NCBI GenBank assembly: GCA_036504445.1
Contig: DASXVE010000009.1
Coordinates: forward strand, 1-64,000
Source: Candidatus Aquicultor sp.
Lineage (GTDB): Bacteria; Actinomycetota; Aquicultoria; Aquicultorales; Aquicultoraceae
Direction of reading: 5' to 3'
DNA: 64,000 nucleotides
The notes below the pieces were generated by a model. That model did not search any database. It was not told where the DNA came from and saw only the letters and a list, made by a program, of their open reading frames with translations. How positions within the stretch are numbered: the first letter of the stretch is position 1; the number at the start of each line of letters is the position of its first letter. Below, piece by piece: positions 6,728-15,391 of this stretch. The position numbers and the translations under genes were made by a program.

Positions 6728-6864
6728 AAGAACTCCTTCATTTTGCATACAAAGTGATAACTATGAAGGTTATTCTCTAAATGTAAAAGCATTACCTTGC
6801 GGATGCAACAAATAACATATAGATAAACATATAATAACTATAAATGATAGTATTTAGATTGTTT

Positions 6865-6959
6865 GGGGACAATGGTGCTGGTGCACTCCACGGGCTGCAA
6901 ACCCGTCGGCTGTCCGTAGAAAGGTCGGAGGAGGGTTCGATTCCCCCTTGCCCCCTCCA
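6865..6959 (+). tRNA. tRNA with anticodon GCA (Cys) but tRNA-Sec-like architecture
   Basis: The 95-nt cloverleaf has an 8-position acceptor stem (6865-6872 with 6948-6955; one A-C mismatch at position 5) and a D arm with GTGC/GCAC and a 4-nt TGGT loop. The 5-bp anticodon stem has loop CTGCAAA, giving anticodon GCA at 6897-6899. A 24-nt variable arm includes a TCCG/CGGA stem. The T arm has loop TTCGATT and five stem positions (one A-C mismatch). The discriminator is U at 6956, followed by an encoded CCA. The 8+5 acceptor/T layout, 4-nt D loop and long extra arm are tRNA-Sec features; GCA and U73 are cysteine identity elements. It could be a minor cysteine tRNA or a recoded selenocysteine tRNA. 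Confidence 0.75.
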
Positions 6960-7000: not shown

Positions 7001-7027
7001 AAAAACCCCGGCTAAGCCAGGGTTTTT
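7001..7027 (+). terminator. Bidirectional terminator between tRNA and rbp gene
   Basis: The hairpin AAAAACCCCGGC / GCCAGGGTTTTT has a three-base loop. It is T-rich on both strands, so it can stop transcripts from the tRNA on the plus strand and from the RNA-binding-protein gene on the minus strand. Confidence 0.8.
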
Positions 7028-7106: not shown

Positions 7107-7481
7107 TTAATACCTACGGCCGCCGCCACCGCCGCCGCCGCCGAAGCCGCCACGGCCGCCACCGCCACCGCCGAAACCTCGACCGCCGCCACCGCCGCCA
7201 CCGAAGCCACGACCGCCGCCGCCAGTACGACGCTCTTGCGGTTTTGCTTCGCTAACTTTAATGTTGCGACCATCAAGTTCCGAACCATCGAGGGCTTGGA
7301 TTGCAGCCTTTGCCTCCTCGTCATTTGCCATCTCAACAAACGCAAAGCCTTTACTTCTACCGGAATCCCGGTCCGTGATGAGATTGACTGACTCAACCAC
7401 TCCATATCCACTGAACATGGTGTTGAGTTTCTCCTCAGTCGTGTCGTAGGAGAGATTTCCTACATAAAGTTTCATAGCCAT
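7107..7481 (-). CDS. Glycine-rich RRM RNA-binding protein
   Basis: The 124-residue protein has one RNA recognition motif (about residues 3-78): RNP2 is LYVGNL and RNP1 is KGFAFVEM, the two aromatic RNA-binding strands. A tail of RGFGG repeats with arginine and a terminal GGRRY follows. Bacterial proteins of this build are cold-inducible RNA chaperones. It lies 39 bases downstream of a DEAD-box helicase in the same direction, so the two probably form an operon that remodels structured RNA in the cold. The start at 7481 is chosen because of an upstream GGAGGAAGGGG; a second ATG two codons later is possible. Confidence 0.9.
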
Positions 7482-14695: not shown

Positions 14696-15391
14696 GTGGA
14701 TTCAAAAACGCTCAATAAGATTAGCTACGGCTTATACGTCGTCAGCTCCGTGCAAGGTGATCGCCATAATGGGCAAATCGCTAACACAGTATTCCAAATA
14801 ACGTCCGAGCCGCCGACGATAGCTGTGAGCATCAACAAAGAAAACCTCACGCACGAGTACATTGAGAGCAGCGGGCTTTTTACCGTATCCATCCTCTCAA
14901 AAGAAGCGCCGATGCCGTTCATCGGGCAATTCGGGTTTAAGACGGGGCGTGAGGTAGATAAATTTAAAGGCGTAGGCTACCGGCTAGGCGCAAACGGTTG
15001 CCCGGTTGTTCTCGATAACGTAACCGGTTATCTCGAAGCACGCGTCGAGAAAGCCATGGATGTCGGAACTCATACGATTTTTGCCGGGTTGGTAACCGAT
15101 GCGCAGAGCGTGAGCAACGGCGAGCCGATGACATATGCATACTATCACGAGGTAAAGCGGGGAACGGCTCCGAAGACGGCGCCAACATATATTAAAGACC
15201 GGGAAAAGGAAGCTAAGGAGGCTACAAAATTGGATAAGTATACGTGTACGGTTTGCGGGTATGTGTATGACCCGGGGTTGGGAGATCCGGATGCGAGCAT
15301 AGCTCCGGGAACCGCGTTTGAGGATTTGCCGGAGGACTGGGTATGTCCGATTTGCGGCAGCGGCAAAGACGAATTTGAAAAGGTTGGTTAA
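14696..15391 (+). CDS. hrb: Flavin reductase-rubredoxin fusion (high-molecular-weight rubredoxin)
   Basis: The 231-residue product joins an FMN-binding flavin-reductase-like domain (about 1-165, with [21 protein letters not shown]) to a rubredoxin domain (about 178-231) with both iron loops, CTVCGY and [12 protein letters not shown]. This layout is that of clostridial high-molecular-weight rubredoxin, which passes electrons from NAD(P)H to flavodiiron proteins that remove O2 or NO. It is typical of anaerobes. The start is GTG 14696 behind AGGAGG. A flavodiiron partner is not in the window. Confidence 0.88.

Follow-up and report, generated by a model that had tools for sequence, protein, structure and literature searches.

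The selC* tRNAs are a published, little-studied kind of second cysteine tRNA that mimics selenocysteine (Sec) tRNA. Reported by Mukai et al. 2017 (NAR), they are described, in the passages that a review devotes to them (PMC7609411), as tRNA-Sec-like tRNA-Cys species with U73, a GCA or UCA anticodon and a modified 8/4 acceptor/T branch with a bulged A51a; the same passages place selB* and cysS* downstream of selC* in some Desulfobacterales and Syntrophobacterales. At Sec UGA codons, the Desulfobacterales (UCA) form reportedly inserts Cys, perhaps under selenium scarcity (PMC9437257). Sec codons other than UGA are known in other bacteria, and a Cloacimonetes-type tRNA-Sec has been described (both PMC5330540).

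We analyzed a window of 64,000 nucleotides from Candidatus Aquicultor sp. (contig DASXVE010000009.1, positions 1 to 64,000). Set against the reviews' description of selC*, the tRNA gene at 6865-6959 is a variant of selC* tRNA-Cys, a known kind. It shares the tRNA-Sec-like body, long variable arm, 8-bp acceptor, GCA and U73, as well as its status as a minor gene besides a normal tRNA-Cys, its occurrence in an anaerobe-type lineage and a probable bulged A in the T stem. In contrast to the form that those review passages describe, the branch is 8/5 with a bulge (13-nt 3' strand) rather than 8/4 with A51a, and neither selB* nor cysS* adjoins the gene. We therefore speak of a variant, since the body, identity elements and bulged A match, whereas the 8/5 branch and the lack of SelB* and CysRS* differ. 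Bacterial tRNA-Sec (selC) has the same 8/5 layout, UGGU D loop and long variable arm and likewise scores over the RF01852 cut-off, but the window tRNA carries GCA instead of UCA and U73 instead of G73, and lies outside the selD-selA-selB-selC locus. The allo-tRNAs reported in the same surveys also have a lengthened acceptor stem, but, as reviewed, their identity is serine and their branches are 8/4 or 9/3, in contrast to the Cys identity of the window tRNA.

Anatomy and scoring of the tRNA

ARAGORN called a tRNA-Cys (gca) of 95 nt at exactly 6865-6959. The features of the gene and its downstream flank are as follows.

6865-6959, + strand: selC*-type tRNA-Cys gene, 95 nt including CCA (ARAGORN, RF01852, model R1)
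6865-6872, + strand: acceptor 5' strand GGGGACAA, partner 6948-6955 TTGCCCCC (8-nt strands)
6874-6887, + strand: D arm, 4-nt loop TGGT (UGGU) at 6879-6882
6890-6906, + strand: anticodon arm, anticodon GCA at 6897-6899
6910-6928, + strand: long variable arm, strands CUGUCC/GGUCGG including a single U-U mismatch (compensatory changes in relatives)
6930-6947, + strand: T arm GG(A)GGG-TTCGATT-CCCCC, probable bulged A at 6932 (energies, comparison)
6948-6955, + strand: acceptor 3' strand TTGCCCCC
6956, + strand: discriminator U73 (sequence)
6957-6959, + strand: encoded CCA
7001-7027, called on the - strand: hairpin of 12 pairs with flanking A and T runs

The 3' strand of the acceptor plus T branch thus comprises 13 nt (8/5). 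The Rfam tRNA-Sec model (RF01852) matched the tRNA from end to end with 50.7 bits against a cut-off of 47 (E = 2.7e-9 in the whole-genome scan), which ranked it second in the genome after the true tRNA-Sec (76.6 bits), and the tRNA was absent from the genome's 47 RF00005 matches (E <= 1e-3). A selC* covariance model (R1), built from an alignment (A1) of 27 selC*-type tRNAs, gave the window tRNA, whose own sequence is part of the model, 90.3 bits, a score near the top among the phylum genomes searched. GCA together with U73 corresponds to the established Cys identity rules. Two other assignments were rejected, namely an ordinary class-I tRNA-Cys with a 7/5 branch and short variable loop, since the gene is not among the genome's RF00005 matches, and a tRNA-Sec (UCA, G73), given the GCA and U73 present here.

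A first-pass annotation, made from the letters of the DNA, had described a tRNA-Sec-like body with a Cys anticodon and U73, and the ARAGORN call, the RF01852 score, the 8-nt acceptor strands and the UGGU loop bear this out. The covariance-model comparison that it proposed came out on the tRNA-Sec side (50.7 bits against 47, and no place among the 47 RF00005 matches), and the conservation in relatives that it asked after was found in five further family genomes. Its two A-C mismatches fared differently. The acceptor mismatch is real: A5 (6869) faces C and is private to the window species, with G5-C at the same pair in all five family members having the gene. For the supposed T-stem mismatch, a bulged A is the better reading. 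With a conserved upstream G, the stem becomes GG(A)GGG/CCCCC, that is, five G-C pairs and one bulged A, and RNA energy evaluation favored this register over the A-C register (-32.8 versus -29.7 kcal/mol, a gap of 3.1). The mismatch register retains some likelihood, because the T stem of one family copy (G007, GUGGG/CCCAC) pairs as a plain 5-bp helix.

Genome context

The host genome (2.57 Mb in 34 contigs, reported as 100% complete) has a canonical 75-nt tRNA-Cys(GCA) at C3:37475 and its own tRNA-Sec with a UCA anticodon and G73, the two standard tRNAs that the first-pass annotation had suggested looking for. The genes selD, selA, selB and tRNA-Sec are clustered at C25:100324-105046, and selD contains an in-frame TGA, which fits a genome that uses Sec. 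Genome-wide, one full-length CysRS was found (542 bits); a second enzyme (CysRS*) was considered and rejected, as the remaining cysS matches reached at most 33 bits. The single SelB lies beside the tRNA-Sec and falls in the canonical SelB clade of the tree, and a SelB search of the whole genome returned no SelB* paralogue. Because a canonical tRNA-Cys, one CysRS and a complete UCA/G73 Sec locus are present, the tRNA encoded at 6865-6959 is an additional, minor one, the third next to the canonical tRNA-Cys and tRNA-Sec.

The gene is located on a different contig from the Sec locus, among unrelated genes: on one side its neighbor encodes a Pfam-less protein, and the other side holds the genes of an RRM protein and a DEAD-box helicase. 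The hairpin at 7001-7027 is a possible terminator for both the tRNA and the opposing RRM gene (7107-7481), with its use on the + strand presumed. A sigma-70 promoter scan returned no + strand site upstream of the tRNA; a TATAAT hexamer occurs at window positions 6830-6835, about 30 bases upstream of the gene and without a clear -35 box. When the flanks were compared with a plasmid collection (blastn), only the DEAD-box helicase and RNA-binding genes had matches and the tRNA was unmatched. Elsewhere in the window (14696-15391), a flavin reductase domain is fused to a rubredoxin domain in a flavoredoxin-like arrangement, and fusions of this kind are typical of anaerobes.

Conservation and covariation

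R1 was searched over 397 genomes of the phylum and recovered the GCA/U73 gene in five further family genomes (G002, G005, G006, G007 and G008), which brings its presence to 6 of 11 family genomes (the window genome and five of the ten others); several other genomes of the class also carry it. The total of 205 genomes with an R1 match is not a selC* count, because many of the weaker matches are plain tRNA-Sec. In G005, G006 and G008, which represent two genera, the tRNA sits in the same conserved gene neighborhood, and among the family copies, changes in the D and variable arms are compensatory. A strict pattern search within the order missed these copies, because their D loop has 3 nt, and the covariance model recovered them. 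In G006 (97% complete), SelA, SelB and SelD over the cut-off and a tRNA-Sec were all not found and the tRNA is kept, which suggests that the tRNA is independent of the Sec machinery; given the clustering of selD, selA, selB and selC, the loss could also be one missing stretch of the assembly.

Beyond the phylum, a survey pattern that combined three loops (D, anticodon and T) with the long variable arm was run on approximately 85,000 species genomes and yielded at least 119 matching stretches. Among the matches listed, about 40 were clear selC*-type tRNAs with U73, held by Nitrospirota, Peptococcia-type Bacillota, deltaproteobacteria and others. More than 50 selC* tRNAs were collected overall, including those of five of the ten other genomes of the window's family, and U73 occurs in every one of these relatives, while the encoded CCA is replaced in some (CTA, CGA). 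Among named genera, Desulfotruncus, Carboxydothermus and Desulforamulus have a selC*. Across the 27 relatives of A1, all eight acceptor pairs have two-sided changes, covariation extends to all helices, and it exceeded every shuffle and every slid control. With family orthologues in existence and 8/8 acceptor pairs changing on both sides, the feature at 6865-6959 is not a product of chance.

SelB* and branch architecture

SelB scored over the family cut-off in 33 of the 34 genomes with a survey-pattern match (among the matches listed) versus 2 of 14 control genomes, and the sole exception (G062, no SelB over the cut-off) holds a Cloacimonadota G73 tRNA, not selC*. It is therefore likely that selC* is linked in some way with Sec decoding in general. 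Some of the relatives have a further SelB gene that directly adjoins the tRNA. These SelB* proteins form one clade apart from all canonical SelBs (100/99 support), the inner order of which is unsure because three of its branches are long.

The presence of SelB* goes along with the layout of the tRNA branch. All selC* genes that adjoin SelB* have a 12-nt 3' branch strand (8/4 + bulge), and SelB* is adjacent in 8 of 11 clear cases of 12-nt genes plus one decayed copy, in contrast to none of the approximately 53 genes with a 13-nt branch among the matches listed, the window's included (p ~2e-9, uncorrected for kinship and calculated once a few ordinary tRNAs had been taken out by hand; for L058 and L132 the edge of the fetched DNA is close to the tRNA). 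The 8/5 branch is also that of most Nitrospirota and Peptococcia-type selC* tRNAs collected. This division, with 8/4 plus bulge where SelB* is present and 8/5 where it is not, seems to be new. The selC*-selB* pairs of deltaproteobacteria and of the window's own class (G011, G019, G020, G023 and G026) have D and anticodon arms very similar to those of the window gene and a like acceptor, mostly GGGGGCAA/TTGCCCCC, but they combine 8/4 plus bulge with a SelB* gene at a distance of ~80-400 bp, a neighbor that the window gene lacks.

Individual loci deserve mention. In G023 (L056), a formate-dehydrogenase-like gene, the selC* tRNA-Cys and selB* follow one another in this order (contig ~1-3600) and the genome has a second, canonical SelB, which makes it a candidate system in which SelB* would insert Cys at marked codons. 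In G027 (L255) selB* is broken and in G028 (L262) it was not found beside selC*, while the sister species G026 still has it, a picture of recent decay of the selC*-selB* pair. A 13-nt Nitrospirota selC*-type tRNA (L063) has a canonical-group SelB as its neighbor at ~90 bp, in a genome with three SelB matches over the cut-off that is possibly a mixed bin.

Probable role of the tRNA

In our assessment, the probability is roughly two in three that the tRNA serves as a selC*-type minor isoacceptor for cysteine with an 8/5 branch, being charged by CysRS, delivered by EF-Tu and used to read UGC/UGU. The first-pass annotation had already thought of minor cysteine tRNAs with lengthened acceptor branches from metagenomic surveys, and the gene indeed belongs with them, in the selC* tRNA-Cys kind. 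The single ordinary CysRS would be expected to charge it through GCA and U73, because these satisfy the Cys identity rules. EF-Tu, and not a dedicated SelB*, would then carry the Cys-tRNA to the ribosome, which is the simplest route because SelB* is absent and a relative keeps the tRNA without a detected SelB. The tRNA would share the reading of UGC/UGU as Cys with the major tRNA-Cys; the patchy but selected retention of the gene points to a probable condition-dependent, auxiliary Cys tRNA. It may descend from an ancestral selC*-selB* pair like those elsewhere in the class; the window's family lacks selB* and has an 8/5 branch.

The co-occurrence of selC* with SelB genomes is strong enough to bring to mind a Cys-selC* working with canonical SelB, either at UGC/UGU before SECIS-like hairpins or in competition with Sec-tRNA, which would give a route for Cys variants or for times of selenium shortage. 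The tRNA-Sec-like body and the SelB* paralogue adjoining the gene in class relatives agree with such a role, as does the Desulfobacterales UCA version, which reportedly inserts Cys at Sec UGA and for which a selenium-scarcity role has been proposed (PMC9437257). However, GCA in the window tRNA cannot read UGA Sec codons, the genome lacks SelB*, and G006 keeps the gene with SelB not found there, so that we regard this arrangement as unlikely. Sec insertion by the tRNA is also unlikely, given its U73 and a G73 tRNA-Sec encoded separately, and its specific form, a tRNA-Sec with a Cys anticodon that is serylated, converted by SelA and recodes some UGC/UGU to Sec, appears highly improbable. A body above the tRNA-Sec cut-off, the full Sec machinery of the genome and the non-UGA Sec codons of other bacteria (PMC5330540) would accommodate it; yet U73 is found in the window gene and all selC* relatives collected, as opposed to G73 in the genome's tRNA-Sec, and it is the UCA tRNA-Sec whose locus also holds selB and selA, and selD carries an in-frame TGA. 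Two suggestions of the first-pass annotation fall accordingly: Ser charging followed by conversion to Sec needs a tRNA-Sec-type discriminator, where this tRNA has U73 and the G73 tRNA-Sec has its own full locus, and recoding of a subset of Cys codons needs a dedicated partner such as SelB*, of which the genome has none.

The patchy family presence (6/11), the private acceptor A-C mismatch, the fact that selB* has been lost or has decayed in other members of the class (G027, G028) and the CTA or CGA in place of an encoded CCA in some relatives could instead mean that the gene is a relic in decay, or that its product is a regulatory tRNA-like RNA with no part in translation. The compensatory changes in relatives, the score of 90 bits with the selC* model (near the phylum top, with the window sequence in the model) and the fact that U73, CCA and the loops of the anticodon and T arms are intact speak against decay and make this quite improbable. 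A minor, CysRS-charged isoacceptor is our preferred reading. As a tentative and still doubtful extension of it, the branch layout might act as a delivery switch: 8/4 plus bulge would lead to SelB* and to Cys at marked codons, whereas 8/5 tRNAs would have left this system to become EF-Tu-dependent and condition-specific, and would be kept also where the Sec machinery has been lost. Some lineages have the partner SelB* and others lack it, and tRNA architecture differs in step; this natural comparison makes it testable whether the acceptor/T branch sets the choice of elongation factor, and what a third tRNA between Cys and Sec is kept for.

GCA-bearing tRNAs of another type were also encountered. 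In Cloacimonadota (L073, L082, L125, L140 and L141), tRNA-Sec-like genes of the Cloacimonetes type (PMC5330540) have GCA but G73 and a shorter acceptor stem. In G057, UCA and GCA versions of tRNA-Sec are both present. In G063, a GCA/G73 gene situated ~1.4 kb from selB is the only tRNA-Sec match in the genome, and Sec may be read from UGC/UGU there.
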